Assembly (NCBI GenBank): GCA_017307375.1
Contig: JAFKFH010000011.1
Span: forward strand, 186,001-250,000
Length of the DNA: 64,000 nt
Direction of reading: 5' to 3'
Source: Alphaproteobacteria bacterium
GTDB taxonomy: Bacteria > Pseudomonadota > Alphaproteobacteria > Ferrovibrionales > Ferrovibrionaceae
Shown: piece by piece, positions 8,422-40,590 of the stretch
Position numbering within the stretch: position 1 is the stretch's first letter
Layout of the letters: the number at the start of each line of letters is the position of its first letter
Notes under the pieces: generated by a model
Database searches by the model: none
Seen by the model: only the letters and a program-made list of their open reading frames with translations
Told to the model about the DNA's origin: nothing
Translations under genes and position numbers: made by a program

Positions 8422-8453
8422 AACGATATTGTCGTTATATGAATTTTCATATA
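8422..8453. promoter_or_regulatory. Tandem dyads, candidate MarR operator and promoter region
   Basis: TATATGAA-TT-TTCATATA (8436-8453) is a perfect 8-bp inverted repeat with a 2-nt centre. Immediately before it, AACGATATTGTCGTT (8422-8436) is a near-perfect dyad. They lie 34-66 bp upstream of the dioxygenase start in the only AT-rich part of this divergent region, the usual place for a MarR operator. Confidence 0.6.
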
Positions 8454-8487
8454 ATCTGGTCTTAATGAACCCAAGGGAGGGCTGACG

Positions 8488-9534
8488 ATGCTGGCCGACC
8501 GCCTCGAAGGCAAGTGGATCGACGCATTCGCCGAGGTCTTCGGCCTGTGCAAGGTCGGGCGCGGCGATGCCGTCGCGATCCTCTCCGAAACCCAATCGCG
8601 ACAGCTGAACGTGCAACTGGCCGAACTGGCGCTGGACCGGCTCGGCGCCCGCTGGTTCCACGTCGTCGTGCCGACGCCGCGCCAGACCGCGCCGGTGGCG
8701 GTGCGGTCGACCGGCGCGTCCGACGCGATCGGCCGCCTGGGACCCGTGGTTTCCGCACTGTCGCAATCGGTGTTCGTCGCCGACCTCACGGTCGAGGGCC
8801 TGCTGCATGCCGTCGAGCTGCCCGAAATCCTGAAGGGTGGCGCCCGCGTGCTGATGGTCTCCAACGAGCATCCGGAAGCGCTGGAGCGGCTGATGCCCGA
8901 TCCCGCCCTGGAGGGCAAGGTGCGCGCCGGGCTGAAGATGCTGCGCGGTGCCCGCGAGATGCGCGTGACCTCGCCCGCCTGCACCGATCTCACCGTCGCC
9001 CTCGAAGGCGCGCGCGTCGGTGGCGGCTGGGGCTTCACCGAGAAACCCGGCACGATCAGCCACTGGCCGGGCGGGCTGTGCCTGTGCTTCCCCAAACGTG
9101 GCAGCGTCTCCGGCCGCCTCGTCATGGCACCGGGCGACATCAACCTCACCTTCAAGCGCGCGATGGAGACGCCGGTCACCCTGAGCGTCGCCGACGACTA
9201 CGTCACCGCGATCGACGGCGACGGCCTCGATGCCGCGCTGATGCGCGACTATTTCGCCGCCTGGGGCGACCGCGACGCCTATGCGGTCAGCCATGTCGGC
9301 TGGGGCATGAACCAGAAGGCGCGCTGGGACAGCCTGGTCATGTACGACCGCAATGAGACCAATGGCACCGAGCAGCGTGCCTTCGGCGGCAACTTCCTCT
9401 ATTCGACCGGCGCCAACGAGGTTGCCGGCCGCCATACGCTCGGCCATTTCGACCTGCCGCTGCGCAACTGCACCGTGACCCTCGACGGTGTCGCCGTCGT
9501 CCGCGACGGCCGGCTGCAGGGGGATCTCGCCTGA
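8488..9534 (+). CDS. NicX-like 2,5-dihydroxypyridine 5,6-dioxygenase family protein
   Basis: 348 residues related to the aminopeptidase-T/M29-fold family that includes NicX, the Fe(II) enzyme opening 2,5-dihydroxypyridine to N-formylmaleamate. NicX uses a 2-His-1-carboxylate triad (His265, His318, Asp320 in the Pseudomonas enzyme, from memory). Here His269, His320 and Asp322 (SHVGWGMN and GHFD) lie at nearly the same positions. GGGAGGG at 8473-8479 supports the ATG. The next gene is an alpha/beta hydrolase, the fold of NicD. The later genes (acyl-CoA dehydrogenase and ligase) do not belong to the nicotinate pathway, so the true substrate may be another N-heterocycle or hydroxylated aromatic. 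A metallo-aminopeptidase is the less likely alternative. Confidence 0.65.
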   Translation: MLADRLEGKWIDAFAEVFGLCKVGRGDAVAILSETQSRQLNVQLAELALDRLGARWFHVVVPTPRQTAPVAVRSTGASDAIGRLGPVVSALSQSVFVADLTVEGLLHAVELPEILKGGARVLMVSNEHPEALERLMPDPALEGKVRAGLKMLRGAREMRVTSPACTDLTVALEGARVGGGWGFTEKPGTISHWPGGLCLCFPKRGSVSGRLVMAPGDINLTFKRAMETPVTLSVADDYVTAIDGDGLDAALMRDYFAAWGDRDAYAVSHVGWGMNQKARWDSLVMYDRNETNGTEQRAFGGNFLYSTGANEVAGRHTLGHFDLPLRNCTVTLDGVAVVRDGRLQGDLA

Positions 9535-10286
9535 TGACCGCGGAACCGGTCGTCCTGCTGCACGGCATCGGCGGCGGGGCGCGCGGTTTCGCGCCCGAGG
9601 TGGCGGCATTGACGGGGCATGGCTACCGCGCCGTGGCCTGGGACCAGCCGGGTTACGGCGACAGCCCGCTGCCGCCGACCAGCGACTGGGCCGTGGCGGT
9701 CGCGGCCTTCATCGCCTTCCTCGATGCGCAGGGGTTCGACCGGGTGACGCTGGTCGGCCATTCGATGGGCGGCATGCTGGCCCAGGAAGTCATCGCCCGC
9801 CACCCCGGGCGGGTCGGGCGGCTGGTGCTGGCCGGGACCAGCCCGGCCTTCGGCGGCGACAGCGAAGCCTGGCGACAGAAATTCCTCAGCGAGCGGCTGG
9901 CGCCACTGGACGCCGGCCAGGGCATGGCCGCACTTGCCCCGGCGCTGGTCGCGGGCATGGTCGGGCCGACCCCCGATCCTGACGGGATGGCACGGGCGAT
10001 CGACTGCATGAGCGCGGTGCCCGAGGCGACCTATCGCGCCTCGCTCGTGCTGCTGACCCGCTTCGACCGCCGCGCCGATCTCGGCCGCATTGCCGTGCCG
10101 ACGCTGGTTCTGGCCGGCGAGAAGGACCGCAACGCCGCCCCCGCGGTGATGCGGCGGATGGCCGAGGCCATTCCCGGCGCGCGCTACGTGGAGCTGGCCG
10201 GCTGTGGCCATGTGATGAGTTTCGATCACCCGGCAGCGTTCCTTGCCGCCCTCGTCGACTTCCTGCCTGGAACGGGAGAGATGTGA
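9534..10286 (+). CDS. Alpha/beta hydrolase (possible NicD-like deformylase or ring-cleavage hydrolase)
   Basis: 250 residues with the oxyanion motif LLHGIGGG, the nucleophile elbow GHSMGG (Ser77), an acid-containing strand LVLAGEKDRNAAP and the catalytic His in GCGHVMSFDHP. The start overlaps the dioxygenase stop (TGATG), implying translational coupling. Hydrolases in this position usually cleave the product of ring opening; NicD removes formate from N-formylmaleamate. The substrate is inferred from the neighbour only. Confidence 0.85.
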   Translation: MTAEPVVLLHGIGGGARGFAPEVAALTGHGYRAVAWDQPGYGDSPLPPTSDWAVAVAAFIAFLDAQGFDRVTLVGHSMGGMLAQEVIARHPGRVGRLVLAGTSPAFGGDSEAWRQKFLSERLAPLDAGQGMAALAPALVAGMVGPTPDPDGMARAIDCMSAVPEATYRASLVLLTRFDRRADLGRIAVPTLVLAGEKDRNAAPAVMRRMAEAIPGARYVELAGCGHVMSFDHPAAFLAALVDFLPGTGEM

Positions 10287-11500
10287 TGGAATTCCGCCTG
10301 AACGATCGCCAGCGCGAGCTGGTCGAGCTGGCCGGCCGTCTCGGCCGCGACAAATTCGCCCCGCGTGCGGCCGAGATCGACCGCGAAGCCCGCTTTCCCT
10401 TCGAAAACTATGCCGACATGCGCGAGGCCGGCCTGCTGGCCCTGTGCGTGCCGAAGGAGTACGGCGGGATGGGCGCCGACTACGAAACCTATTGCCTGGT
10501 CGCCGCCGAGATCGGCCGGCATTGCGGGGCCACCGCCCTGACGCTGAACATGCACAGCTGCGCGATGATGTGGTCGGGCGACCTGGTCGACGCCCTGCCG
10601 CTGACCGCCGAACAGCGTGCCCGTCACCATGCCCATCGCGGCCGGCACTACGAACGGGTGGTGCGCGACGGCGCGATCTATGCCCAGCCGTTCTCCGAGG
10701 GCAACGCCGCCGCGTCGGGCCGGGCCGCCTTCGAGACGACGGCCGTCAAGGTCGACGGCGGCTGGCTGATCAACGGACGCAAGGTCTTCGCCTCGCTGTC
10801 GGGAGCGGCAAACTACTACGGCCTCCTGTGCACCGAGGAGAAACCCGGCAAGGACCATGATCGGCGCGACACGATGTATATCGTGGCGCCGGCCGATGCG
10901 CCCGGCGTATCGGTCGTCGGCGACTGGGATCCGCTGGGCATGCGCGGCACGGTCTCGCGCACGCTGATCCTGAAGGATGTCTTCGTGCCCGAGGACGAGG
11001 AACTGATGCCGCCCGGTGTCTATCACACCGCGGCGCTGTCCTGGCCGCACATGTTCATGACGATGACGCCGACCTACATGGGTGTCGCCCAGGCCGCGGT
11101 CGACTTCACCCGCAACTACCTGCGCGGCGAGGTGCCGGGCATGCCGCCGATCAAGCGGCGCAACATCGTGGCCAAGCAGCTCGCCTTCGGCGAGATGCAG
11201 ATCAAGCTGGAACAGGCCAGCGCCCTGTTCCGCCGCGCAATCTCGGAGGCGAGCTACCAGCCGTCGAAGGAACAGCGGCTGCGCGCCTATGCGACCCAGT
11301 ACACGGTGATGGAGTTCGCCAACGATATCTGCCGCCTGGCGATCCGCACCTGCGGCGGCCATTCGATGCTGAAGTCGCTGCCGCTGGAGCGGCTCTACCG
11401 CGACAGCCGCTGCGGTGCGCTGATGCTGCCCTGGACCGCGGAAATCTGCATCGAGCGCGTCGGGCGCGAAAGCCTGTACGAAGCCGGCGAGACGGACTAG
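10286..11500 (+). CDS. Acyl-CoA dehydrogenase-family flavoprotein lacking the usual YEGT catalytic glutamate
   Basis: 404 residues with the acyl-CoA dehydrogenase order: N-terminal helices, KEYGGMGADY, a mid beta-domain with the (W)LINGRKVFASLSGAANYYG loop, and a C-terminal helical domain with RTCGGHSM. In typical members the base lies in a YEGT(S)E motif near residue 380; here the aligned segment is MLPWTAEI with Pro382 at the Glu position. The base must be elsewhere, as in isovaleryl-CoA dehydrogenase, or the chemistry differs. It starts at the ATG overlapping the hydrolase stop (TGATG). Confidence 0.82.
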   Translation: MEFRLNDRQRELVELAGRLGRDKFAPRAAEIDREARFPFENYADMREAGLLALCVPKEYGGMGADYETYCLVAAEIGRHCGATALTLNMHSCAMMWSGDLVDALPLTAEQRARHHAHRGRHYERVVRDGAIYAQPFSEGNAAASGRAAFETTAVKVDGGWLINGRKVFASLSGAANYYGLLCTEEKPGKDHDRRDTMYIVAPADAPGVSVVGDWDPLGMRGTVSRTLILKDVFVPEDEELMPPGVYHTAALSWPHMFMTMTPTYMGVAQAAVDFTRNYLRGEVPGMPPIKRRNIVAKQLAFGEMQIKLEQASALFRRAISEASYQPSKEQRLRAYATQYTVMEFANDICRLAIRTCGGHSMLKSLPLERLYRDSRCGALMLPWTAEICIERVGRESLYEAGETD

Positions 11501-11504
11501 GCCG

Positions 11505-12932
11505 ATGATGGCGCAGTGGGCCGCCGGCTGGGCGGCCCATCAGCCCGACAAGCCGGCGATCGTCCACGAGGGCGGGATCGTGACCTATGCGGGTCTCGCA
11601 AGGCGCATCGAACGCGCGGCGGCCGCCCTGTCCGAGGCCGGCGTGGGCCGTGGCGACCGGGTGGCGCAGCTCGGCCTGAACAGCCCCGACACCCTGGTGC
11701 TGCTGTTCGCCTGCGCCCGGCTCGGCGCGATCCTGGTGACCCTGAACTGGCGGCTGACACCGGCCGAACTTCAGGCGATCGTCGGCGACTGCACGCCGAA
11801 ACTCGGCTGGATCGATCCCGACTTCGCCGCCGCCCTGCCCGGCCTGCCGCGGCTGGCCAGCCTTGCCGGCAACGGCCCTGCGCCCGCCGACGGCCAGGAC
11901 GACGACGGCGTCCTGCTGGTCTATACCTCGGGCACCACCGGCCGGCCCAAGGGGGCGCTGCTGACCCAGCGTGCCCTGACCTGGAACGCGATCAACGGGC
12001 TGCACGCCAACGACCTGACCGCCGCGGACCGTGTGCTGACGGTGCTGCCGATGTTCCATGTCGGCGGCCTCAACATCCAGACGACGCCGGCCCTGTTCGC
12101 CGGCGCCACCGTCGTGCTGGAGCGCCGCTTCACGCCGGAAGGCTTCTGCGCCGCGCTTGCCGCCCATCGGCCCAGCCTGACCCTGCTGGTGCCGGCGGTG
12201 ATGCAGGCGCTGCTGCGCCATCCGGATTTCGCCATGGCCGATCTGTCCTGCCTGCGGCTGATCATGACCGGTTCGTCGACGGTGCCGGCGGCGCTGATCG
12301 ACCCGTTCCATGCCCGCGGCGTGCCGGTAGGCCAGGTCTACGGCTCGACCGAGACCGGCCCGACCGCGATCTGCCTGCGGGCCGACCGGGCGATGGCCAA
12401 GATCGGTTCCTGCGGCGCCCCCGCCCCCCATGTCGACGTGCGCGTGGTCGACGAAGCGGGCCATGACGTGGCCGACGGCGTCAGCGGCGAAATCCTGGTG
12501 CGCGGGCCCAACGTGATGGCGGGCTACTGGAACGATCCGGGGGCGACGGCGGCGGCGCTGGAGGGCGGCTGGTACCGGACGGGCGACATCGGCCACCGCG
12601 ATGCCGACGGCTGCTTCTGGATCGACGACCGCAAGAAGGACGTGGTGATCTCGGGTGGCGAGAACATCTATCCCGCCGAGCTCGAGGCCGTGCTGGCCGC
12701 ATGCGAGGGCATCGCCGAGGCCACCGTGGTCGGGCGCGCCGATCCACGCTGGGGCGAGGTACCGGTCGCCGTCGTCGTCTCCGCACTGACCGAGGCCGAG
12801 ATCCTGGGGCTGTTCGAGGGGCGGCTGGCTCGCTACAAGCACCCCCGCGCCGTCGCCTTCGTCGACCGCCTGCCCCGGAACGTCATGGGCAAGGTGCTCA
12901 AGCACGAGGTCCGCACATGGCTGGGCGGCTAA
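11505..12932 (+). CDS. AMP-dependent acyl-CoA synthetase / ligase
   Basis: 475 residues of the ANL superfamily, which adenylates a carboxylic acid and transfers it to CoA. Visible motifs are YTSGTTGRPKG (P-loop, about residue 144), YGSTETGP (A5), YRTGDIGHRDADG (A7), DDRKKDVVISGGENIYP (hinge) and the late catalytic Lys in NVMGKVLKHE. It starts 4 nt after the dehydrogenase stop. Its presence means the pathway of this cluster passes through a CoA thioester. The exact acid cannot be read. The stop is interleaved with that of the convergent MarR gene. Confidence 0.92.
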   Translation: MMAQWAAGWAAHQPDKPAIVHEGGIVTYAGLARRIERAAAALSEAGVGRGDRVAQLGLNSPDTLVLLFACARLGAILVTLNWRLTPAELQAIVGDCTPKLGWIDPDFAAALPGLPRLASLAGNGPAPADGQDDDGVLLVYTSGTTGRPKGALLTQRALTWNAINGLHANDLTAADRVLTVLPMFHVGGLNIQTTPALFAGATVVLERRFTPEGFCAALAAHRPSLTLLVPAVMQALLRHPDFAMADLSCLRLIMTGSSTVPAALIDPFHARGVPVGQVYGSTETGPTAICLRADRAMAKIGSCGAPAPHVDVRVVDEAGHDVADGVSGEILVRGPNVMAGYWNDPGATAAALEGGWYRTGDIGHRDADGCFWIDDRKKDVVISGGENIYPAELEAVLAACEGIAEATVVGRADPRWGEVPVAVVVSALTEAEILGLFEGRLARYKHPRAVAFVDRLPRNVMGKVLKHEVRTWLGG

Positions 12933-13441
12933 TCCTCGGCGCCCTGCCCCTCGGGGTCGCCCCCCATATCGGCCAGCGCCACCTCGAGCGCCGCCAGCAT
13001 GCCCTGCAGCTCGGCGAGCCTGGCGGCGCCGAACCGTCGGGTGATCTCGACATAGATCGCCTCGGAATCCGGCGCCACCTCCTCGATCAGGGCAACGCCG
13101 TTCGGCGCAATCGAGATGCGCGCCCGCCGCAGGTCGTTGTCGACCGGCCGGCGTTCGACCAGCTTGCGTGCCTCGAGGTCGCGCAGGATCCGCGACAGCG
13201 ACGGCGGCAGCAGGCAGGTCGCCCTGGCCAGTTCCGTCACTTCCAGTCCATTGCGCGAATGCAGGGCGCGCAGCACCCGCCATTGCTGCTCGGTGACGCC
13301 GTGACGGCGCAAGGTCGGGCGGAATTGCTGCATCACCGCCTCGCGCGCGCGCAGCAGGGCCATCGGCAGCGAGCGGCTGTAAGCCCTGAGGCCGGAGGCC
13401 GCCTCGGCGGTGTCGTCGGATGATGGCAACGGGTTGGGCAT
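12929..13441 (-). CDS. MarR-family regulator, HpaR-like
   Basis: 170 residues. LPMALLRAREAVMQQFRPTLRRHGVTEQQWRVLRAL closely recalls the start of HpaR, the homoprotocatechuate operon repressor; VTELARATCLLPPSLSRILRDLEARKLV is the recognition helix region and NDLRRARISIAPNG the wing. It is divergent from the branched-chain-type ABC importer genes, with an inverted repeat over the importer promoter, so it probably represses the importer and perhaps the catabolic genes. Ligand unknown, likely an aromatic acid. Confidence 0.88.
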   Translation of the reverse strand: MPNPLPSSDDTAEAASGLRAYSRSLPMALLRAREAVMQQFRPTLRRHGVTEQQWRVLRALHSRNGLEVTELARATCLLPPSLSRILRDLEARKLVERRPVDNDLRRARISIAPNGVALIEEVAPDSEAIYVEITRRFGAARLAELQGMLAALEVALADMGGDPEGQGAED

Positions 13442-13660: not shown

Positions 13661-14833
13661 ATGACCGCGCGGAATCCGTCTCGCCGTCTGGCGCTGTGCC
13701 TCGGCGTCGCCACTGCCGTGATGCTCGGCGCCCTGGGCGGGGCCCAGGCCCAGCAGGCGCCGATCAAGATCGGCTCGTTCCTGGCCGTCACCGGCCCGGC
13801 CAGCTTCCTCGGCGATCCCGAGGCCAAGACCCTCAAGCTTTATGTCGACCGCATCAACAAGGCCGGCGGCGTCGCCGGCCGCCAGTTGCAACTGGTCGTC
13901 TATGACAGCGCCGGCGATGCCAAGCAGGCGGTCTCGTTCGCCAAGCGCCTGATCGACGAGGACAAGGTCGACCTGATCATCGGCGGTTCGACGACCGGCG
14001 AAACCATGGCCGCCGCCCCGGTGGTGCAGGAAGCCGAATTGCCGTTCATTTCGCTTGCCGGCGCGAACGTCGTGGTCGAGCCGGTGAAGAAGTGGATCTT
14101 CAAGACCCCGCATTCCGACCGGATGGCGATCGAGAAGATCTTCGAGGATGCCCAGAAGCGCGAGTTCAAGAAGGTCGCGGTGATCGGCGGCCCCGGCGGC
14201 TTCGACCAGTCCTGCCGGGCCGAGGCGGTCAAGCTGGCGCCGAGATACGGCCTCGAGGTCGTCGCCAACGAAACCTATGGCGCCAACGATACCGAGATGA
14301 CGCCGCAGTTGACGCGCATCCGCTCGACCCCCGGCGTGCAGGCGATCGTCGGCTGCGGCTTCGGCGCGCCGACGGTGATCACCGCCCGCAACTACAAGCA
14401 GCTGGGCATGCAGAACATCCCGTTCTATTTCAACCACGGCGTCGGCTCGGACCAGTTCATCAAGCAGTCCGAGGGTGCGACCGAGGGCATGCGCGTGCCG
14501 GTCGCCGCCGTCCTGGTCGGCGACCAGCTGAAGGCCGACGACCCGCAGCGCCCGATCGTGACCGACTATCGCAAGACCTACACGGAAGCCTACAACGAGC
14601 CGATCTCGACCTTCGGCGGCCATGCCTTCGACGCGCTGCTGATCGCGACCGAGGCGATCAAGCGGGCCGGCGGCCCGGACAAGGCCAAGGTGCGCGACGA
14701 GATCGAGAAGACCAAGGACCTGATCGGCGTCGACGGCATCTTCACGATGTCGGCGACCGACCACATGGGCCTGGATCTGCGGTCGTTCAAGATGACCGAG
14801 ATCAAGGACGGCAAGTGGGTCCTGCTGTACTGA
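13661..14833 (+). CDS. Branched-chain-type ABC transporter substrate-binding protein (LivK/HAAT family)
   Basis: 390 residues with a signal peptide (basic start, hydrophobic run to GGAQAQQ, cleavage near residue 28) and a type I periplasmic binding domain opening PIKIGSFLAVTGPASFLGDPE. It has two lobes joined in the middle by GGPGGFDQSCRAEAV, as in LivK/HAAT proteins. RBS AGGGAGGAG lies just before the ATG. Followed in order by two permeases and two ATPases. Proteins of this family near aromatic degradation genes often bind aromatic acids rather than amino acids. Confidence 0.93.
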   Translation: MTARNPSRRLALCLGVATAVMLGALGGAQAQQAPIKIGSFLAVTGPASFLGDPEAKTLKLYVDRINKAGGVAGRQLQLVVYDSAGDAKQAVSFAKRLIDEDKVDLIIGGSTTGETMAAAPVVQEAELPFISLAGANVVVEPVKKWIFKTPHSDRMAIEKIFEDAQKREFKKVAVIGGPGGFDQSCRAEAVKLAPRYGLEVVANETYGANDTEMTPQLTRIRSTPGVQAIVGCGFGAPTVITARNYKQLGMQNIPFYFNHGVGSDQFIKQSEGATEGMRVPVAAVLVGDQLKADDPQRPIVTDYRKTYTEAYNEPISTFGGHAFDALLIATEAIKRAGGPDKAKVRDEIEKTKDLIGVDGIFTMSATDHMGLDLRSFKMTEIKDGKWVLLY

Positions 14834-14890
14834 CCCCGGCCTGACCGAAACCAGATCGATGCCCATTGCTCAGGCCGGTGCGACGACAGA

Positions 14891-15763
14891 ATGAGTGACT
14901 TTCTCCAGTTCGTCTTTTCCGGCCTGACGGTGGGCGCGATCTACGCGCTGGTCGGGATCGGTTTCGCGCTGATCTACAACGCCAGCCACGTCATCAACTT
15001 CGCCCAGGGCGAGTTCGTCATGATCGGCGGCATGGCGACCGTCGCCCTGATCGACCTGGGCGTGCCGCTCCTGCCGGCGGCGCTGGTGGCGATCGCCATC
15101 GCCGCCCTGGTCGGCGTGGCGCTCGAAAAACTCGCAATCGAGCCGGCACGGAATGCCGGCGTGGTCACGCTGATCATCATCACCATCGGCGCCTCGATCC
15201 TGGTGCGCGGCGTGGTCGAGGTGGTGCTGGGCAAGCAGTTCCACCGGCTGCCCAGCTTCTCCGGCGACCAGCCGATCCTGGTCGGCGGCGCCACCCTGCA
15301 CCCGCAGTCGCTGTGGATCGTCGGCGCGCTGGTCGTGCTGGTCGTCGGGCTCAAGCTGTTCTTCGACCGCCATCCGTTCGGCAAGGCGATCCTGGCCACT
15401 GCCCATAACCGCCTGGCGGCCCAACTGGTCGGCATCGAGGTCAAGACGGTGCTGGTGGCAAGCTTCGCGCTGTCGGCCGCCTTCGGCGCGATCGGCGGCA
15501 TCCTCACCGCCCCCCTGACCCTGACCCAGTACGACGTCGGGGTCATGCTGGGCGTCAAAGGTTTCTGTGCGGCCATCCTGGGCGGGCTGGGCAGCCCGTT
15601 CGGCGCCGTGCTGGGCGGGCTGATCGTCGGGCTGGCCGAAGCGCTGGCCGCCGGCTACGTCTCGTCCGCCTACAAGGACGTGGTCGCCTTCGTGATGATC
15701 CTGCTGGTGCTGTTCTTCATGCCCTCGGGCCTGTTCGGCACCAAGGGCACGGAACGCGTCTGA
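14891..15763 (+). CDS. livH: Branched-chain-type ABC transporter permease, LivH family
   Basis: 290-residue membrane protein with about eight hydrophobic segments. GLTVGAIYALVGIGFALIYN and VINFAQGEFVMIGG near the N terminus and GGLGSPFGAVLGGLIVG near the C terminus are characteristic of LivH. It is 57 nt downstream of the binding protein and 1 nt overlaps the LivM start. It forms half of the membrane channel of the importer. Confidence 0.93.
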   Translation: MSDFLQFVFSGLTVGAIYALVGIGFALIYNASHVINFAQGEFVMIGGMATVALIDLGVPLLPAALVAIAIAALVGVALEKLAIEPARNAGVVTLIIITIGASILVRGVVEVVLGKQFHRLPSFSGDQPILVGGATLHPQSLWIVGALVVLVVGLKLFFDRHPFGKAILATAHNRLAAQLVGIEVKTVLVASFALSAAFGAIGGILTAPLTLTQYDVGVMLGVKGFCAAILGGLGSPFGAVLGGLIVGLAEALAAGYVSSAYKDVVAFVMILLVLFFMPSGLFGTKGTERV

Positions 15764-16707
15764 TGGCAAATCCGGCTCTCGGCCGCTGGGGCGGCCTGAT
15801 CGTCCTGATCGTGGTGGTCGCGGCGCTGCCGCTGGTCCTGCCCAACAAGTTCTACTACGACATCGCCGTCAAGACCGGCTTGAACGCGCTGGTCTGCGTC
15901 GGGCTGAACCTGCTGATCGGCTATGCCGGCCAGATCAGCCTGGGCCACGCCGCCTTCTTCGCGCTGGGGGGCTATGCCTCGGCCGTCCTGACCACGCGCT
16001 ACGAATGGAACGGCTTCCTGGCGCTCGGCGCCGGCGCGGTCGCGACCGGGATCGTCGCCTATCTCGTCGCCCGGCCGATCCTGCGGCTGAAGGGTCATTA
16101 TCTGGCAATGGCCACGCTGGCCTTCGGCATCATCGTGTCGCTGGTGCTGAATCGCGAAATCTGGCTGACCGGCGGGCCCGACGGGATCACGGTGCCGACC
16201 TTAAGGCTCGGCGACATGCGGCTGCGCTCGGCCGAGACCTGGTACTGGATCACCGGCGGCGCCCTCGTCGTCGTCACCTATCTGGCGCTGAACCTGATTC
16301 ATTCCCCGTCCGGCCGCGCCATCCGGGCCCTGCACGGCTCGGAAGTCGCGGCCGAGACGCTCGGCATCGACGTCGCCCGCACCAAGACGATGGTCTTCGT
16401 GCTGTCGGCGGTGATCGCGGCGATCGCCGGTTCGCTGTTTGCCCATGCCGACCGCTTCATCACCCCGAACGAGGCGGGCTTCCTGCGCTCGGTCGAGCTG
16501 GTCACCATGGTGGTGCTGGGCGGCATGGCCTCGACCTTCGGGGCGATCGTCGGCGCCGCACTGCTGACCGTGCTGCCGCAGGCGCTGGCCGGCTTCGACG
16601 AATTCAAGCATATCGTGCTGGGCGCGATCCTGGTCGGCACCATGATCTTCCTGCCCAAGGGCCTGGTGCCCAGCCTGGGCGCCCTGATCCGGCGGTGGCG
16701 GCGATGA
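15763..16707 (+). CDS. livM: Branched-chain-type ABC transporter permease, LivM family
   Basis: 314-residue membrane protein. NLLIGYAGQISLGHAAFFALGGY and the GGMASTFGAIVGAALL signature identify the LivM family. The start overlaps the livH stop (TGATG) and the stop overlaps the livG start (ATGA). The partner channel subunit of the importer. Confidence 0.93.
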   Translation: MANPALGRWGGLIVLIVVVAALPLVLPNKFYYDIAVKTGLNALVCVGLNLLIGYAGQISLGHAAFFALGGYASAVLTTRYEWNGFLALGAGAVATGIVAYLVARPILRLKGHYLAMATLAFGIIVSLVLNREIWLTGGPDGITVPTLRLGDMRLRSAETWYWITGGALVVVTYLALNLIHSPSGRAIRALHGSEVAAETLGIDVARTKTMVFVLSAVIAAIAGSLFAHADRFITPNEAGFLRSVELVTMVVLGGMASTFGAIVGAALLTVLPQALAGFDEFKHIVLGAILVGTMIFLPKGLVPSLGALIRRWRR

Positions 16708-17464
16708 CCAGCCTGGAAGTCGCGGGCCTGGCCAAGTCGTTCGGCGGGGTCACCGCCGTCGACGACGTCACCTTCTCGATCACGCCCGGCCATATCCATT
16801 CGATCATCGGCCCCAACGGCGCCGGCAAGACGACGCTGTTCAACCTCGTGGCGGGGCTCTACGTGCCGACCTCGGGTACGGTTCGGCTGGCCGGCCAGGA
16901 TGTCACCGCGCTGGCCCCGCATCAGCGGGCCGCCCTGGGGCTCGGCCGCACGTTCCAGAACCTGCAGATCTTCTTCAACATGTCGGCGATCGAGAACGTC
17001 ATGGTCGGCCGCCATCTGCGGCGGCGCGCGGGTTTCCTCGGCTCGCTGTTCGCCCTGCCCTCGGCCTGGGCCGACAACCGCGAGGCGCGCGCCCAGGCGG
17101 CGCGGCTGATGGCCCGCGTCGGCCTCGAGGCCTATCTCGATGCCGAGGCCGACGCGATGCCCTATGGTGCGCTCAAGCGGCTCGAGATCGCGCGGGCACT
17201 GGCCGCGGAACCCAGCCTGCTGATGCTCGACGAGCCGGCGGCCGGCCTGAACCCGACCGAAACCCAGGAGATCGACCGGCTGATCCAGTCGATCGCCGCC
17301 GACGGCATCACCGTCGTGCTGGTCGAGCACGACATGAAGCTGGTCATGGGCATTTCCGACCACATCATCGTGCTCGATCACGGCCGGCTGCTCGCCCAGG
17401 GCACCCCGGCCGAGGTCGCGCGCGACCCGCAGGTCGTCGCCGCCTATCTCGGCGGGGAACCGGC

Positions 17465-17468
<4 letters not shown>
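16704..17468 (+). CDS. livG: ABC transporter ATP-binding protein, LivG family
   Basis: 254 residues: Walker A GPNGAGKTT, a LivG-type insert with FQNLQIFFNMSAIENVMVGRH, a degenerate signature (MPYGALKRLEIARAL), Walker B LLMLDEPAAGLNPTE and the H-loop VEHDMKLVMG. The start ATG overlaps the livM stop (ATGA); an open frame continues far upstream, but it is not the gene. One of two cytoplasmic motor subunits. Confidence 0.93.
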
Positions 17469-18178
<710 letters not shown>

Positions 18179-18229: not shown

Positions 18230-19450
18230 ATGACCGACAGCGATATCGAAGCCATTGCGGCCTGGCTGGTCGAATGCGGCCTGTCCGGCGTCGCCGAGAC
18301 CGAGTTGCTGGACGGGTTCTGCGTCCGCTGCAACAGCGCCGGCCTGCCGCTCGTCCGCGCGCTCACCATCATCGACACGCTGCATCCGATCTACGAAGGC
18401 CGTGCCTTCCGCTGGCGCAACGACGGCGTCGAGGAAAGCGCGATGATCGAATACGGCCGGACCAACGAGGGCGAGGCCGCCGCCGAATGGCAGCGCAGCG
18501 TGTTCTTCCACCTGCTCGATTCCGGGGCGACCGAACTGCGCCGCCGGCTGACCGAGGACGACCGCGGCGACTTCAGCCACCTGACCCGGATGAAGGCCGA
18601 CGGCCTGACCGACTATGTCGCCTTCATTCACCGCTTCACCGGGGACGGTGCGATCGGCGACATGGATTGTCTTTATTCACATTGGACCACGGCCCATCCC
18701 GACGGCTTCGCCGACGCCGGGCTCGGCGCACTGCGCCGGCTGCTTCCGGCCCTGGCGCTGGCGATCAAATGCGCCTCGCTCGCCCGCATCGCCGGGACGC
18801 TGGTGCAGGTCTATCTCGGCCGCGACGCCGGCCAGCGGGTGTTGAACGGCCGGATCGCCCGCGGCGTCTCGGACAAGATCAACGCCGTCCTCTGGTTCTC
18901 CGACCTGCGTGGCTACACCACGATCACCGACACCGCCGCCCCGGACCAGATCATCCCGTTGCTGAACGACTATGGCGACGCGGTGATCTCGGCGATCCAC
19001 GAAGCGGGGGGCGACGTCCTCAAGCTGATCGGCGACGGGGTGCTGGCGATCTTCAAGGCCGACGACCCCGCCGATGCCTGCCGCGCCGCGTTGCAGGCCG
19101 AGGCCGACATGCGCCGCCGCCTGCGCGACCTGAACGAGCGGCGGCGCGCCGAAGGGCGGCCCGTCACTCAAGTCTACCTGGGCTTGCATATCGGCGACGT
19201 GCTCTACGGCAATGTCGGCTCGAACGACCGGCTCGACTTCACCGTGGTAGGCCCGTCAGTGAACGAAGTGAGCCGCATCGCCTCGATGTGCCGCTCGGTC
19301 GATCGCGGCGTCGTGCTGTCCTCCGATTTCGCCGCCGCCACCCCGGACCCCGAGCGGGAACACCTCGTCTCGGTCGGTCGCTATGCGCTGCGCGGGGTGG
19401 GCCGTGCCCAGGAACTCTTTACCCTCGATCCCGGATTGCTGCCACGCTGA
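18230..19450 (+). CDS. Class III adenylate/guanylate cyclase
   Basis: 406 residues. The N-terminal ~200 residues form an unassigned domain without membrane segments. The C-terminal cyclase domain has both metal-binding aspartates (WFSDLRGYT, Asp225; LIGDGVLAIF, Asp269), the substrate-selecting Lys in VLKLIGDG, and GNVGSNDRLDFTVVGPSVNEVSRI, whose Asp-Phe-Thr fits adenylate rather than guanylate specificity. It is predicted to be soluble and to make cAMP. It stands between an importer operon and a hybrid kinase; joint control is possible but not shown. Confidence 0.9.
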   Translation: MTDSDIEAIAAWLVECGLSGVAETELLDGFCVRCNSAGLPLVRALTIIDTLHPIYEGRAFRWRNDGVEESAMIEYGRTNEGEAAAEWQRSVFFHLLDSGATELRRRLTEDDRGDFSHLTRMKADGLTDYVAFIHRFTGDGAIGDMDCLYSHWTTAHPDGFADAGLGALRRLLPALALAIKCASLARIAGTLVQVYLGRDAGQRVLNGRIARGVSDKINAVLWFSDLRGYTTITDTAAPDQIIPLLNDYGDAVISAIHEAGGDVLKLIGDGVLAIFKADDPADACRAALQAEADMRRRLRDLNERRRAEGRPVTQVYLGLHIGDVLYGNVGSNDRLDFTVVGPSVNEVSRIASMCRSVDRGVVLSSDFAAATPDPEREHLVSVGRYALRGVGRAQELFTLDPGLLPR

Positions 19451-19626: not shown

Positions 19627-21384
19627 ATGGCCATCCTGTCCTTCCGCCGCGCCGCCTGGTTCGGCGTGGCCGACGACAATTCGACACGGGTCGCCCAGTC
19701 CGTTGCCGTCATCCGCCACGCGCCGATGCTGGTGATCGGCAATGCCGTCGGTGCGGTCGCCGGCGTGCTGAGCCTCTACCACTCGTTCCCGCTGCTGGAA
19801 CTGCTGCCGCTGCCGATCATCGTGCTGGCGCTGCAGATTCCCCTGATCCGCTCGGCCGTGAAGCTGCGTGGCGCGCCACTGCCGGCGACGGTATCGCGGC
19901 GCCGGATCAAGCTGATCATCGGCTATTCGGCGATGCTCGGCCTTGTCTGGACCGGCCTGCTGTTCTTCTATCTGCCGCGCGCCCCCTTCCCGCCGGCGGC
20001 CTTCCTGCTGTCCGGGATTGCCTTTCTCTGCCTCGGCGCGGTGACGGCCCTGTCGGCGGTGCCGACCGCATGTCTGGCCTACGCCCTGCCGATGATGGCA
20101 GGCGGGCTGACCGTCGCGCTGCTGGCACCGGATCCCGCCGCCTGGGCGGTGGCCTTCATGCTGGTGCTGATGTTCGCCGGCCAGATGTGGTTCCTGTCCG
20201 GCAACTGGCGGCAGTTCAAGTTCCTGATCGATACCGCCCGCGAGAAGGAACAGCTCGCCGTCGCCGCCCAGGCGTCCAGCACCGCCAAGTCGGAATTCCT
20301 CGCCGTCGTCAGCCATGAACTGCGCACGCCGCTGAACGGCGTGCTGGGCATGATCGGCCTGGCGCTGCAGGACACGCTGGACCCGGTGCAGCGCCAGCGC
20401 CTCGCCTTCGCCGACCAGGCCGCCCGCGACCTGCTGACGCTGGTGAACGACATCCTCGACTATTCGAAGTTCGAAGTCGGCCTCGTGACGATCGAACCGG
20501 TCGACTTCCATCTCGGCGACCTCGTCCAGTCGCTCAGCGAACTGCTTGCCCCGCGCGTCGCCGCCCAGGGCAACCGGCTGAACTGGACGATCGACGAGGC
20601 GGTGCCCGACTGGCTGCGCGCCGATGACGGGCGCTTACGGCAGGTCCTGGTCAACCTGCTGGTCAACGCGATCAAGTTCACCCGCAACGGCAGCATCGAC
20701 GTCCATGTCGGCTGGGTGACGACCGACGAGTTCGGCATCCTCCGCGTCGCCGTGACCGACAGCGGCATCGGCATCCCGCCGGAGAAATTCGACCGGCTGT
20801 TCCAGCCGTTCTCGCAGGTCGATTCGTCGCTGGCGCGCGCGCATGACGGCATGGGCCTCGGGCTGTCGATCTGCCGGCGCCTGATCGAGGCGATGGGCGG
20901 CGAAATCGGCGTCACCAGCAAGGTCGGCCAGGGATCGACCTTCTGGTTCACGATTCCCTGCGCGCCCGCCATGCCGCAGGTCGCAAGCGACCGCCCGGCG
21001 ATGCCGCAGGCCCGTCCCATGCGCGTGCTGGTCGCCGAGGACAACATGATGAACCAGGCGCTGATCCGCGAAATGCTGCGGATGGGCGGCCACTACTGCG
21101 ACGTGGTCGCCGACGGTGTCGAGGCGGTCGAAATGGTCAAGAAGCTGCCCTACGACCTGGTGCTGATGGACGTGCAGATGCCGCGGCTGGACGGCCTCGA
21201 CGCGACGAGGCAGATCCGCGCCCTGCGATCCAAGGCACGTGAGGTCCAGATCGTCGCGCTCACCGCCAACGTGATGCCGGCCCAGCGCCAGGCTTGCCTC
21301 GATGCCGGCATGAACGCCTTCCTGCCCAAGCCGGTCGACGCGGCCGCGCTCAACCGCTTGCTGGCCGAGGTGGCGGGGGCCTGA
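19627..21384 (+). CDS. Membrane hybrid histidine kinase with C-terminal receiver domain
   Basis: 585 residues. Several hydrophobic segments between about residues 30 and 195 anchor it, with no large periplasmic domain. HisKA follows with VVSHELRTPLNG (phospho-His230), then a HATPase domain with N-box NLLVNAIKF, G1 DSGIGIP, and G2 GMGLGLSICRRLIEAMGG. The receiver domain starts at MRVLVAEDNMMNQ, with phospho-Asp515 in LMDVQMP and the conserved Thr/Lys in ALTAN and PKPVD. There is no Hpt domain, so the phosphate must leave through a separate protein. Sensor input probably lies in the membrane part. Confidence 0.92.
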   Translation: MAILSFRRAAWFGVADDNSTRVAQSVAVIRHAPMLVIGNAVGAVAGVLSLYHSFPLLELLPLPIIVLALQIPLIRSAVKLRGAPLPATVSRRRIKLIIGYSAMLGLVWTGLLFFYLPRAPFPPAAFLLSGIAFLCLGAVTALSAVPTACLAYALPMMAGGLTVALLAPDPAAWAVAFMLVLMFAGQMWFLSGNWRQFKFLIDTAREKEQLAVAAQASSTAKSEFLAVVSHELRTPLNGVLGMIGLALQDTLDPVQRQRLAFADQAARDLLTLVNDILDYSKFEVGLVTIEPVDFHLGDLVQSLSELLAPRVAAQGNRLNWTIDEAVPDWLRADDGRLRQVLVNLLVNAIKFTRNGSIDVHVGWVTTDEFGILRVAVTDSGIGIPPEKFDRLFQPFSQVDSSLARAHDGMGLGLSICRRLIEAMGGEIGVTSKVGQGSTFWFTIPCAPAMPQVASDRPAMPQARPMRVLVAEDNMMNQALIREMLRMGGHYCDVVADGVEAVEMVKKLPYDLVLMDVQMPRLDGLDATRQIRALRSKAREVQIVALTANVMPAQRQACLDAGMNAFLPKPVDAAALNRLLAEVAGA

Positions 21385-33614: not shown

Positions 33615-34499
33615 TCAGGCGCGCAGGCGCTGGATCCGGCGCGCGGCCCGCATCAGCGCCGGGTTGTCGTAGATCGCGGTCTTGACCCGGGCCTTCAGGT
33701 CGTTGGCCAGCGAATATTCCGGCTGGTTGGCGAAATAGCGATGCTTGCCATAGGCCCGCAGCGTCACCCAGTCCTTGGCGACGAACAGATTGCCGAAGCG
33801 CAGATCGGCCGGCAGGAAATGGGCGGTCAGCGATTTTCGCGACCGGCCGGGATCGCGGGTCGGCAGCGCGCCATGGATGGTCCGCGAATTCCAGATGATC
33901 ATGTCGCCCCTGGCCAGCGCCGGCGCGGCCAGGCGGTCCGGATTGGCCGCGCAATAGTCGGCCATCAGCGCCAGCCAGTCGTCATGCCGCAGCCGGCGGA
34001 GGTCCTGGTGCAGCACGACCTCGTGGGTCCCGCTCATCAGATAGAACCGCCCGGCCGCCTCGGCGATGTCCTCCAACGCGATCCAGGCCGCCGCCAGCCG
34101 TCCGTTCGGCACGCTGTCGAGATACCACCAGTCCTGATGGGCCGGGGTGGCCGCGTTCTTGTCGAACAGCATCGACTGCATCAGGTGGAAACGGTCGAAG
34201 CCGGTCGCCTCGGCCAGGTATCGCTGCAACCCGTCGTCGAACAGCAGATCCAGGATCGCTTCGCGAATCGACGGGATGGTCTCGTAGTTATGGGGATCGA
34301 GGAACGAATTGGTGACGTGGCCATGGCCGTCGACCGCGTTCGGCTCGTAGCGATTGGTATTCTGCCGGAAGAACTTGGCCCGCGACGGCCGCAGATCGCC
34401 GGCATAGGCGGCCATCAGCCGGTCGATGCGGGCCGGCGCCACCGCACCCGGCACCAGCACCCAGCCATCCCGTTCATAGGCATCGCGCAACGCCGACAA
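33615..34499 (-). CDS. Phytanoyl-CoA dioxygenase (PhyH) family protein
   Basis: 294 residues of the Fe(II)/2-oxoglutarate oxygenase fold. HQDWWYLDS supplies the HxD metal pair, TIHGALPTRD the distal His, and RSRKSLTAHF the Arg that binds 2-oxoglutarate. RDGWVLVPGAV at the N terminus is typical. The start is TTG at 34499, preceded by GGAGG at a 5-nt spacing; that GGAGG is inside a perfect hairpin. It lies 71 bp downstream of the anthraniloyl-CoA monooxygenase gene on the same strand, so it may be the last gene of that operon. Substrate unknown. Confidence 0.87.
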   Translation of the reverse strand: MSALRDAYERDGWVLVPGAVAPARIDRLMAAYAGDLRPSRAKFFRQNTNRYEPNAVDGHGHVTNSFLDPHNYETIPSIREAILDLLFDDGLQRYLAEATGFDRFHLMQSMLFDKNAATPAHQDWWYLDSVPNGRLAAAWIALEDIAEAAGRFYLMSGTHEVVLHQDLRRLRHDDWLALMADYCAANPDRLAAPALARGDMIIWNSRTIHGALPTRDPGRSRKSLTAHFLPADLRFGNLFVAKDWVTLRAYGKHRYFANQPEYSLANDLKARVKTAIYDNPALMRAARRIQRLRA

Positions 34500-34503
34500 G
34501 CCG

Positions 34504-34531
34504 ACCTCCGCCCAATCGCTTGGGCGGAGGT
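34504..34531 (-). promoter_or_regulatory. Hairpin sequestering the ribosome binding site of the PhyH-family gene
   Basis: ACCTCCGCCCAA and TTGGGCGGAGGT form a perfect 12-bp stem with a 4-nt loop. On the minus-strand mRNA the 3' arm contains GGAGG (34509-34505), ending 5 nt before the TTG start, and the 5' arm pairs CCTCC to it. No U-run follows, so it is not an ordinary terminator. It would hide the ribosome binding site unless melted or disrupted. Confidence 0.65.
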
Positions 34532-34570
34532 ATAGCAGCAGACGATCGGCTTCGATAGCCGGGGGCGCGG

Positions 34571-36919
34571 CTATTCCGCCGCGTCGAGGCGCCGGATCTC
34601 GGGCCGTTTCGGGGTGGCCAGCTTGCGCAACTCGGCCATGTCCTGGCGTTCACGCTCGGCCAGGCTGAAGGCCTGGTCGCGGCCGGCCAGGTACTGCCTG
34701 GGCCAGGCCTGGCCCTTGAAGCCGTATTCGGCCGAGGCATGCAGCGTGAAGTACGGGTCGGCCAGATGCGGCCGGGCCAGGCAGCAGAGATCGGCGCGCC
34801 CCGAGGCGACGATCGTGTTGACCTGGTCGGCCGAGGTGATGGCGCCGACCGCCATGGTCGCGATGCCGGCTTCCTGGCGGATCTGGTCGGCGAACGGCGT
34901 CTGGAACATGCGGCCGTAGACCGGCTTGGCATCGACCGTGGTCTGGCCGGCCGAAACGTCGACGATGTCGGCGCCATGGGCCTTCAGCATCCGCGCCACG
35001 GCGACGGACTCCTCGGGCGTCAGCCCGGCATCGGGTACCCAGTCGGTCGCCGACACGCGGACCGAGATCGGGCGGTCGGCCGGCCAGGCGGCCCGCACCG
35101 CGTCGAACACCTCGAGCGGGAAACGCATGCGGTTCTCGATCGAGCCGCCGTATTCGTCCGTGCGCTGGTTGGTCAGCGGCGAAATGAAGCTGGCCAGCAG
35201 ATAGCCATGCGCCATGTGGACTTCGATCATGTCGAAGCCGGCATCGACCGCGCGGCGGGCGGCGGCGGCGAAGTCGTCGCGCACCCGGTCCATGTCGGCC
35301 CGCGTCATCTCGCGCGGCACCTGGCTATGCGGATAATAGGGCAGCGGCGAAGCCGCGATGATTTCCCAGCCGCCTTCCTTCAGCGGCTGGTCGTAGCCCC
35401 CCTCCCACGGCAGGCAGGTCGCCCCCTTGCGGCCGGCATGGGCGAGCTGGACGCAGATCCGTGCCGCCGAATTGCCGTGGACGAAATCGGTGATCCGGCG
35501 CCAGGCCTTGGCCTGTTCGTCGTTCCACAGCCCGGTGCAGCCCGGGGTGATCCGGGCATCGGCGCTGACGTCGGTCATCTCGGTGATGATCAGCCCGGCG
35601 CCGCCGATGGCGCGGCTGCCCAGATGCACCATGTGCCAGTCGTTCGGCACGCCATCCTGCGCCGAATACTGGCACATCGGCGAGACGACCACGCGGTTGG
35701 CCAGCATCATCCCGCGCAGCTTGAACGGCGTGAACATCGGCGGCGGCGGATTGTCGGCCGGCAGGGCAATCCCGGTCTGCTTGGTCGCCTGCGCGGCAAA
35801 CCAGCGATCGATCGCCCCCATGAAGACGGGGTCGCGCAGCCGCAGGTTGTCATAGGTGATGCGCTTGGAGCGCGACAGGAGCGACAGGGCCAGCTGGATC
35901 GGCTCCATCTCGCGATAGCGCGGGGTCGACTCGAACCATTCGAGCGAGACCTGGGCGGTATGCTGCAGCAGCGAGGCTTCGTCGCGGCGCTTCTTCTCGT
36001 AGGCGGCCAGGCCCTGCGCGACCGTCGCATTGTCGCGGATCGCATTCGCCAGGGCGATCGCATCCTCCATGGCCAGCTTGGTACCGGACCCGATCGAGAA
36101 ATGCGCGGTGTGGACGGCATCGCCCATCAGGACGACGTTCCCATGCACCCAGCGTTCGCACTTGATCGTCGGGAAGGTGCGCCACAGCGAGCGGTTGGTG
36201 ATCAGCGGATGGCCGTCGAGGTCGCCGGCGAACAGCTTTTCGCAATAGGCGACGGTGTCGGCCTCGGTCGCCTTGTCCAGCCCGGCCTTCAGCCAGGTTT
36301 CCTCGGTCGTCTCGACGATCCAGGTCGCGGTGGTCTTGTTGAACTGGTAGGCGTGGACCTGGAACAGGCCGTCCTGGTTTTCGCGGAAGACGAAGGTGAA
36401 GGTCTTCAGCGGCTTGGTCGTGCCGAGCCAGACGAACTTGTTGCGCCGCCAGTCGAAGGACGGGCGGAATTCGTCCTTCCACGTCTCGCGCACCAGACTG
36501 TTGATGCCGTCGGCGCCGACCAGCAGGTCGCAATCGCGGCGCAGCGCGTCGAAATCGGCCACTTCATGCTGGAAATGCAGCTTGACTCCGAGGCTTGCCG
36601 CCCGGCGCTGCAGGATGTCGAGCAGCTTCTGGCGGGCGATGCCGCAGAAACCGTGCCCGCCCGACCGGATCGTCTCGTTGCCGGCGACGACGTCGATCTC
36701 GTCCCACCAGGCGAAGTTGTCGATGATGTCGCGATAGGTCCCCTCGTCCTCGCCGAGGAACTGCGACAGCGTCTCGTCTGAGAACACGACGCCGAAGCCG
36801 AAGGTGTCGTCCGGCCGGTTGCGCTCGTAGATCGTGATGTCGTGCGCGGGATTGTCGCGCTTCAGGAGGATCGAGAGATAGAGGCCGGCCGGGCCGGCGC
36901 CGACGATGGTGATCTTCAT
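34571..36919 (-). CDS. Anthraniloyl-CoA (2-aminobenzoyl-CoA) monooxygenase/reductase, fused flavoprotein
   Basis: 782 residues with two flavin domains. Residues about 1-380 form an FAD aromatic hydroxylase ([48 protein letters not shown]). From about 395 an old-yellow-enzyme domain follows ([57 protein letters not shown]). This exact order and length match the Azoarcus 2-aminobenzoyl-CoA monooxygenase/reductase, which hydroxylates and reduces the ring. The adjoining 2-aminobenzoate-CoA ligase supports it. The single-domain salicylyl-CoA 5-hydroxylase is an alternative for the N-terminal half only. Confidence 0.88.
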
Positions 36920-36932
36920 GATGTCAGTCCTC

Positions 36933-38567: not shown

Positions 38568-38570
38568 GGC

Positions 38571-39755: not shown

Positions 39756-39756
39756 T

Positions 39757-40590
39757 TCAGTCGCCCTCGAAGACGGGCTTCTGCTTGGCGACGAAGGCAT
39801 GGTAGGCGCGCGCGAAATCGCGCGTCTGCATGCAGATCGCCTGGGCCTGCGCCTCGGCCTCGATCGCCTGGTCGATATCCATCGCCCATTCCTGGTGCAG
39901 GCACTTCTTGGTCATGCCGTGGGCGAAGGTCGGGCCGTCGGCCAGCTGGGTCGCCAGCGCCGTGGCTTCGCCGTTCAGCGCCTCGGGGGCGACGAGCCGG
40001 TTGAAGAAGCCCCAGCGCTCGCCCTCCTCGCCCGAGAACGAGCGGCCGGTATAGAGCAGCTCGGCGGCGCGGCCCGAGCCGATGATGCGCGGCAGGATGT
40101 TGCAGGCGCCCATGTCGGCGCCGGCGAGGCCGACACGCACGAACAGGAAGGCGGTCTTGGACCGCGCGGTGCCCAGCCGCAGGTCGGCGGCCATCGCGAC
40201 GATGGCGCCGGCCCCGGCGCAGACGCCGTCGACCGCGGCGACGATCGGCTGCGGACAGGCGCGCATCGCCTTGACCAGGTCGCCGGTCATCCGGGTGAAA
40301 TCGAGCAGGCCGCCCATGTCGTTGGCTTCCTGCATCCGCACCAGCGGCCCGATGATGTCGTGGACATCGCCGCCCGAGCAGAAATTCTCGCCGGCGCCGG
40401 TTACCACGACGGTCTTCACGTCACGGGCATAGACGAGGTCGCGGAAGGTGTCGCGCAGTTCGGCGTAGGACTCGAAGGTCAGCGGGTTCTTGCGCTCGGG
40501 ACGGTTCAGGGTGATCGTCGCCACCTTGCCCGACACTTCCCACTTGAAATGCTGCTTCTGCCAAGCGGCAGCGCTGCCGACGTCCTTCAT
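39757..40590 (-). CDS. Enoyl-CoA hydratase/isomerase family protein
   Basis: 277 residues of the crotonase fold: [14 protein letters not shown] (first oxyanion element), [27 protein letters not shown] (second), and [19 protein letters not shown], where typical hydratases carry a catalytic Glu. That position reads GLAGADMGA, with Asp in place of Glu, as in some ring-opening crotonases. It overlaps the MarR stop by 4 nt. In the Azoarcus aminobenzoate clusters a hydratase gene accompanies the same ligase and monooxygenase. Confidence 0.88.

Follow-up and report, generated by a model that had tools for sequence, protein, structure and literature searches.

A NicX-type dioxygenase in a CoA-linked operon: a candidate oxygenolytic pathway associated with anthranilate and tryptophan genes

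Background

The dioxygenase NicX of Pseudomonas putida KT2440 (7cn3) cleaves dihydroxypyridine between C5, which bears the hydroxyl group, and C6, and leaves an N-formyl group. In this study we compare NicX and several other catabolic systems with a gene product, here called DOX, that heads a four-gene operon in an alphaproteobacterium of the family Ferrovibrionaceae. The operon occupies positions 8488-12932 of a 64,000-nucleotide stretch of DNA (assembly GCA_017307375.1, contig JAFKFH010000011.1, positions 186,001 to 250,000), referred to below as the window and forming part of contig C20 in a genome of 7.54 Mb. Besides DOX it encodes an alpha/beta hydrolase (HYD), an acyl-CoA-dehydrogenase-fold flavoprotein (ACM) and an AMP-forming acyl-coenzyme A (CoA) ligase (LIG3). 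In the excerpted account on which we draw, NicX is the subtype-defining member of its kind of dioxygenase and is strongly specific for a single pyridine substrate; its iron ligands are His265, Ser302, His318 and Asp320, and its substrate contacts are Leu104, His105, Glu177 and His189, with Glu177 reaching N1 and O1 of 2,5-dihydroxypyridine (PMC7910607).

Other described systems share single features with the operon. In the alkylquinolone Aqd pathway a monooxygenase, a dioxygenase and a hydrolase give rise to anthranilate and a fatty acid; the dioxygenase AqdC has an alpha/beta-hydrolase fold, and we know of no NicX-type enzyme in this pathway. In the iif/ind and iac clusters, Rieske enzymes can act in the steps that follow the first oxygenation. 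These clusters are comparable to the operon in that a flavin-dependent oxygenase works with a flavin reductase on indoles, the iif product being anthranilate, but they differ in that short-chain dehydrogenase/reductase (SDR) and cofactor-independent enzymes come next, and the sections of the sources that describe them list no NicX-type dioxygenase or CoA ligase (PMC6221969, PMC7225977). IacA, as described in part of the latter source, is a group D flavin monooxygenase with the acyl-CoA dehydrogenase (ACAD) fold that ACM also has (PMC7225977), whereas IifC belongs to group E and does not have this fold. The 2-aminobenzoyl-CoA (anthranilate-CoA) pathway with its 2-aminobenzoyl-CoA monooxygenase/reductase (ABM) is the probable downstream route: its presumed genes are present in most DOX genomes examined and sometimes lie close to the operon, and the passages of the source that treat it do not name DOX, HYD, ACM or LIG3 as its parts (PMC6221969). 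In searches of the open-licence PMC literature, none of the papers listed described a gene set of this make-up, which agrees with the initial annotation, made by a model from the sequence, in which the mix of genes had matched no known pathway.

The dioxygenase and its active site

A search of PDB sequences with DOX (8488-9534, plus strand; a putative non-heme Fe(II) ring-cleavage dioxygenase), with E values up to 10 allowed, matched a single sequence, that of NicX (7cn3, 7cnt, 7cup; E 6.8e-54), over nearly its full length. At E 0.001 DOX had no family match in Pfam or NCBIfam, and the Peptidase_M29 profile found nothing in the whole genome. From this evidence DOX is, by sequence, a NicX-type ring-cleavage enzyme and not an aminopeptidase, as had been proposed at the outset.

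The alignment to NicX upheld the iron ligands put forward in the initial annotation, His269, His320 and Asp322, and added Ser306, the counterpart of NicX Ser302, as the fourth; Arg297, His107 and His192 are also kept in the window DOX, and Gly180 stands in place of NicX Glu177. This pattern holds across the alignment of 85 DOX rows (84 of them distinct, the window being entered twice; locus L085 is missing). In NicX numbering, His265, Ser302, His318, Arg293, His105 and His189 are kept in all 85 rows and Asp320 in 84, but position 177 is Gly in 37, Val in 36, Ser in 7 and Thr in 5, with no acidic residue in any row. Two further glutamates of NicX are replaced, Glu183 by Arg or Lys in 80 of the 85 rows and Glu308 mostly by Val or Thr. 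The iron site of NicX is retained in DOX, but the pocket recognising dihydroxypyridine is not.

The initial annotation had asked for a phylogeny of the dioxygenase against NicX. In a midpoint-rooted FastTree tree the DOX group and NicX form separate clades (support 0.93). DOX is a sister of NicX housed in a new operon, and what it does biochemically can be given as a reasoned guess. The same genome holds a NicX paralogue on contig C28 (in the region 118000-137000), about 40% identical to DOX and with Gln at position 177, which sides with NicX in the tree. Its neighbours include a hydrolase, a HAAT (branched-chain amino acid type) ABC importer and two molybdenum-hydroxylase-like gene sets, the latter recognised by eye, and this set probably represents another N-heteroaromatic acid pathway.

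The operon, its distribution and its variants

The four-gene run was recovered with every gene where the initial annotation had placed it, and the tight coupling noticed there is evident at each junction. HYD (9534-10286, plus strand; PcaD-like superfamily, Pfam Abhydrolase_1 at 5.4e-33) overlaps DOX by 1 nt, ACM (10283-11500, plus strand; Pfam Acyl-CoA_dh domains) overlaps HYD by 4 nt, and LIG3 (11505-12932, plus strand; AMP-binding at 3.5e-87) follows after a gap of 4 nt. The best NCBIfam models for HYD are of PcaD types, far below cut-off, and the solved chains nearest to LIG3 are the fatty-acyl/feruloyl-CoA synthetases 8weu and 8wev (365 bits).

ACADs carry their catalytic glutamate at one of two places, the YEGT position or an alternative WERL-type position. 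In one MAFFT alignment with 72 ACM rows, the first of the two columns holds Pro in 69 rows and a gap in 3, and the second Met in 68, Phe in 1, Ile in 1 and a gap in 2; 20 of 20 control ACADs carry Glu at one column or the other. The first column on its own lacks Glu in 12 of the 13 control ACADs of one cluster as well. A flavin reductase gene lies near DOX in 27 of the 65 loci with at least 2.6 kb of upstream sequence; beside the window operon there is none, and the genome has two distant candidates (matching at 32-35%). The missing glutamate and the frequent proximity of flavin reductases suggest a two-component monooxygenase of the IacA kind, and ACM is probably of group D. A plasmid search for ACM relatives recovered its own family at 50-59%, after which the matches listed (50 of 103) dropped to 31% or less, a pattern that speaks neither for nor against kinship to IacA.

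One scan of genome contigs gave 331 DOX relatives at a tblastn E of 1e-3, of which the best 80 loci, at 66-75% identity, were kept and analysed; the other 251 may include NicX-type genes. The record titles of the 80 loci include Beta- and Alphaproteobacteria, Pseudomonadales and Acidimicrobiia, and the operon is thus widespread. At least 4.2 kb of sequence follows DOX in 66 of the 80, and in 45 of these 66 HYD, ACM and LIG3 are all found on the same strand within 4 kb downstream, always in the order DOX-HYD-ACM-LIG3 (45/45). The other 21 are without one to three of these genes there.

Several variants of the operon were observed. In Rhizobiaceae (Shinella, L165:3320-11048, and L003-L006) a glutamine-synthetase-like gene and an APC permease take the place of LIG3, and the hydrolase is longer, with an extra N-terminal stretch. 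In two genomes of the class to which the source organism belongs, G194 and G001, DOX and HYD are followed by an FAD hydroxylase instead of ACM and LIG3, and His189 is replaced by Tyr; the G001 contig ends at this operon. These Rhizobiaceae and G194/G001 arrangements speak for flexible entry to the pathway. In the variant loci L154:8759-14648 and L155:9178-13021, where His189 is Tyr, a YCII-like small protein (by eye) and an FAD hydroxylase come after DOX-HYD and no ligase or ACM lies beside DOX. An acidimicrobial locus (L150, 12923-18028) has a paralogue of ACM (43%) after ABM genes, together with a gene for a 1286-aa oxoprolinase/hydantoinase-like protein (by eye).

Association with anthranilate and tryptophan genes

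The distribution of DOX was compared with that of the 2-aminobenzoyl-CoA genes in 240 genomes of the same class as the source, with DOX called at E up to 1e-80 and the Fisher tests uncorrected for kinship here and below. An aryl-CoA ligase of the ABM gene set (ABCL) is present in 16 of the 17 genomes with DOX, which include divergent DOX at 45-56% identity (G157, G213, G194 and G001), as against 31 of the 223 others (Fisher 6e-12). Full-length ABM, counted from matches of about 700 bits or more in 42 genomes, is found in 14/17 and 28/223 respectively (1.5e-9), and kynureninase (KynU), found also by profile TIGR01814, in 9/17 and 33/223 (6e-4). Within the 42 KynU genomes, all nine with DOX have ABM compared with 17 of the 33 without it (p 0.008), and all nine have ABCL compared with 19 of 33 (p 0.02); within the ABCL genomes DOX was not further linked to ABM or KynU. 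Equal coordinates identify G197/G244, G082/G259 and G187/G263 as duplicate genomes, and L028 is the same as G087.

A similar picture came from 28 genomes hand-picked across phyla from the 80 loci, about 10 of them Polaromonas and 4 Pandoraea. ABM is present in 25 of the 28, its gene being split into two pieces in three of these 25; without L014, L057 and L072, which were already known to carry ABM, the count is 22/25. AntA did not rise above its cut-off in any of the 28, with weaker ring-dioxygenase matches in 13. When the 17 class genomes were combined with 22 of the 28, a relative of ABCL was detected in 36 of the 39 genomes with DOX.

The two gene sets are at times physically close. Many of the neighbours described here (KynB, TRAP, SDR, amidase, formamidase, molybdenum hydroxylase and others) were named by eye from N-terminal sequence. 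An ABM relative lies within the examined flanks of DOX in 7 of the 80 loci: in L028 and L041 the operon runs into the ABM gene set, and in five betaproteobacterial loci ABM is upstream. Tryptophan 2,3-dioxygenase (TDO) is near DOX in 4/80 loci and KynU in 5/80. In the Pandoraea loci the operon runs divergently from the TDO, KynU and KynB genes; in G015 it is followed by TDO, and in L053 it has KynU and ABCL nearby. In Shinella sp. PSBB067 the 27 kb after the variant operon contain a formamidase-like gene, ABCL, TDO, a HAAT importer, KynU, MarR, ABM, SDR, enoyl-CoA hydratase and ACAD genes.

In the window itself, ABM (34571-36919, minus strand; NF006101, FAD_binding_3, Oxidored_FMN) is a fusion of an FAD monooxygenase with an Old Yellow Enzyme domain, of the 2-aminobenzoyl-CoA or salicylyl-CoA 5-hydroxylase kind. 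It belongs to a CoA-linked aromatic cluster at 33615-41872, whose further genes (36933-41872, minus strand) encode ABCL, an acyl-CoA dehydrogenase, an enoyl-CoA hydratase, a MarR regulator and an SDR, the last named by eye from its N-terminus. KynU lies at C20:251874-253031, just outside the window (1.9 kb to its right) and 56 kb from DOX. The context of the window ABM cluster suggests 2-aminobenzoyl-CoA as its substrate. In class genomes without DOX, ABM or ABCL is located within 5 kb of KynU in G029, G160, G154 and G196 (the first two from a single genus). This placement speaks for the anthranilate reading rather than for the NCBIfam name of salicylyl-CoA 5-hydroxylase. A split of ABM into two clades depends on the rooting and was not used as evidence. 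The associations of the operon therefore point to tryptophan and anthranilate rather than to pyridine.

Proposed pathway and its alternatives

We consider it somewhat probable that the operon represents a new oxygenolytic pathway that extends from Alpha- and Betaproteobacteria to Acidimicrobiia and uses a re-tooled NicX to open a benzo-fused N-heterocycle (an indoxyl or a hydroxyquinolone) or a hydroxyanthraniloyl-CoA thioester. A possible new N-heterocycle or aromatic pathway had been raised in the initial annotation and is partly supported: the operon is by sequence NicX-type, is tied to CoA-linked genes and is described in none of the papers listed by our searches, while it proves to be widespread and associated with tryptophan and anthranilate genes rather than with pyridine. 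If this is correct, bacteria would have one more genetic route by which tryptophan-related rings reach central metabolism. A large sister family that has the iron site of NicX and a different pocket would also widen NicX chemistry, and if the operon feeds the breakdown of anthranilate, many environmental bacteria would gain gene assignments for a carbon route related to tryptophan or indole, and the present database labels 'peptidase M29' and 'acyl-CoA dehydrogenase' would be corrected. Since the operon is compact and has its own candidate operator, its substrate is directly testable.

The more specific form of this pathway that we put forward, tentatively but as a serious possibility, is a peripheral route that would hydroxylate and open an indole- or quinolone-type compound and deliver anthranilate. 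Sequence comparison itself shows the protein families, the retained iron site, the changed pocket, the loss of the dehydrogenase base, the conservation of gene order, the regulator with its candidate operator and the genomic tie to anthranilate genes. In the proposed route, whose reactions, step order and substrate are all deduced from these, the substrate may be a benzo-fused N-heterocycle of the indole or quinolone type that is linked to tryptophan. LIG3 would convert an acid to its CoA thioester, and could be placed either at the start, acting on an acidic substrate, or at the end, acting on an acid that has been released. ACM would hydroxylate the aromatic ring with the help of a flavin reductase, whose gene may be close by or elsewhere; DOX would open the hydroxylated ring oxygenolytically in the manner of NicX, between the hydroxyl-bearing carbon and its neighbour; and HYD would hydrolyse the ring-opened product. 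The net product would most likely be anthranilate, or 2-aminobenzoyl-CoA, which could then enter the ABCL and ABM route. The simplest single case would be the conversion of 3-hydroxyindole via N-formylanthranilate to anthranilate, as NicX-type cleavage of 3-hydroxyindole would give N-formylanthranilate. The relevant passage of one source records that in 1953 this compound was placed, by way of isatin, on the degradation route of indole as a proposed intermediate, and that one later strain was unable to use it (PMC6221969). The nesting of the DOX genomes inside the genomes with ABCL and ABM is what would be expected of a peripheral route feeding a central one, and for this reason the feeding model is favoured.

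Several points weigh against a route of this kind. LIG3 does not fit a plain indoxyl route, because ABCL is already present in 36 of the 39 genomes, and a deformylase role for HYD is a guess given its identity of only 23-25% to the hydrolases that occupy the NicD position in Azospirillum; as a close relative of NicD it was rejected on the same figure. The conserved His189 and the Arg or Lys at position 183 would be a better match for a substrate that is acidic or bears CoA than for the neutral indoxyl. Three of the 39 genomes (G213, G249 and G262) have DOX and neither ABCL nor full-length ABM, so that the operon can apparently stand alone. The association tests, besides their lack of correction for kinship, handle genome size only through the KynU stratum, and Polaromonas and Pandoraea are numerous in the cross-phyla sample. 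The window ABM scores 1175.5 bits against NF006101 (cut-off 1078), a model named salicylyl-CoA 5-hydroxylase, and a NicE-like gene near DOX in L154, to which we return below, is a trace of nic-type chemistry.

The strongest rival is a parallel anthranilate route, in which the operon would replace ABM instead of feeding it: LIG3 would form anthraniloyl-CoA, ACM would hydroxylate it at C5, DOX would open 5-hydroxyanthraniloyl-CoA and HYD would remove a fragment. This scheme has the attraction of using all four enzymes in order. The change of Glu177 to Gly or Val would free the ring position that would bear the thioester, the amino group would lie opposite His189, and the basic residue at position 183 could meet the CoA, and it would also account for the genomes without ABM or ABCL and for neighbouring TDO, KynU and KynB genes. 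We nevertheless regard it as rather unlikely, because the genomes within which the operon is nested possess ABCL (16/17 vs 31/223) and ABM already, because both sets are consecutive on one strand in L028, which would be odd for alternatives, and because there are variants in which DOX has neither ligase nor ACM beside it (L154, L155).

A second rival, improbable in our estimation, holds that the substrate is an aromatic acid without nitrogen, of the salicylate, gentisate or hydroxybenzoate family, and that the enzyme which co-occurs with DOX really is a salicylyl-CoA 5-hydroxylase. In its favour are the name that NCBIfam gives, above cut-off, to the 782-aa ABM enzyme, the score of ABCL just below the cut-off of the benzoate-CoA ligase family and the HpaR gene that adjoins the operon. 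The TDO, KynU or KynB neighbours in several lineages, and the ABM and ABCL genes beside KynU in genomes that have no DOX, point to a nitrogen compound.

The third, that DOX is a true NicX and serves the lower nicotinate pathway or some other route through 2,5-dihydroxypyridine, was examined with plasmid-borne nic clusters of Azospirillum (L170-L172) as controls. These contain a HAAT importer, an FAD monooxygenase, an Asp/Glu racemase, an alpha/beta hydrolase, the dihydroxypyridine dioxygenase and an isochorismatase, and the shared family and iron site, the hydrolase next to DOX and the nearby importer do recall them. However, Glu177 is kept in the Azospirillum NicX and in all four NicX references of the tree, while it has been lost from 85/85 DOX rows and is Gln in the paralogue from the same genome. 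With the Azospirillum NicE and NicF as tblastn queries (E 1e-3) there was no match in the window, to which the search of this genome was confined, so that the absence of nicE and nicF remarked on in the initial annotation holds at the DNA level. Over 192 loci and the window, NicF was found only in L170-L172, and NicE in these and in L154, whose NicE-like gene (13992-14648; 28% identity, E 1e-10) is some 4 kb downstream of DOX. The loss of Glu177, together with the lack of NicE and NicF homologues beside the window operon, led us to reject the nicotinate pathway, which is very improbable despite the L154 gene. That DOX is an M29-type aminopeptidase, as the 'peptidase M29' annotation of its homologues in Ensifer and Aminobacter would have it, is so improbable that we reject it, for the Peptidase_M29 profile is unmatched, the sole PDB match up to E 10 is NicX and no M29 peptidase, and the context is a catabolic operon. 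The public records NZ_CP083351.1 and NZ_CP015007.1 (L004, L005) carry the 'peptidase M29' label for their DOX homologues, and it is probably wrong there and inherited via remote similarity.

Regulation, transport and neighbouring genes

The MarR, dioxygenase and hydrolase arrangement reported in the initial annotation is present, with a MarR-family gene (P0006; 7833-8265, minus strand; translation starting MTGGFVDDYLSYLLARASHLVSRDFH) divergent from the operon. Between it and DOX lies a perfect 20-bp palindrome, TTATATGAATTTTCATATAA (8435-8454), a candidate MarR operator. Of 83 loci, 30 have a MarR relative of P0006 (tblastn, 43-62% identity) in the 3 kb before DOX, the window included. In 10 of the 83 the 300 bp before DOX contain the sequence ATGAANNTTCAT (200 shuffles: mean 0.1, maximum 1), and all 10 are among the 30 with the MarR relative (Fisher 1.2e-5). 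The longer palindrome TATATGAANNTTCATATA is present once in the 7.54 Mb genome, even with up to two mismatches allowed, and from this the regulator looks to be local. The adjacent MarR gene and the inverted-repeat candidate operator fit a self-contained catabolic operon under its own predicted MarR repressor. A second MarR gene, of the HpaR type (12929-13363, minus strand; Pfam MarR, TIGR02337 at 155.1 bits, cut-off 121.2), closes the operon on the opposite strand.

The HAAT importer that follows (13661-18178, plus strand; by Pfam a substrate-binding protein, two permeases and two ATPases) is complete, as had been noted, and could be the uptake system. Its membership of the system is less clear, since it shares no operator with the operon and only 2 of the 80 kept loci have a substrate-binding protein of this type (at least 80 bits) near DOX. 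Such an importer is otherwise near DOX in the window, in Shinella and in weaker cases, and as a fixed partner it was rejected. Downstream of it are genes for a guanylate/adenylate cyclase-domain protein (18230-19450) and a hybrid histidine kinase (19627-21384).

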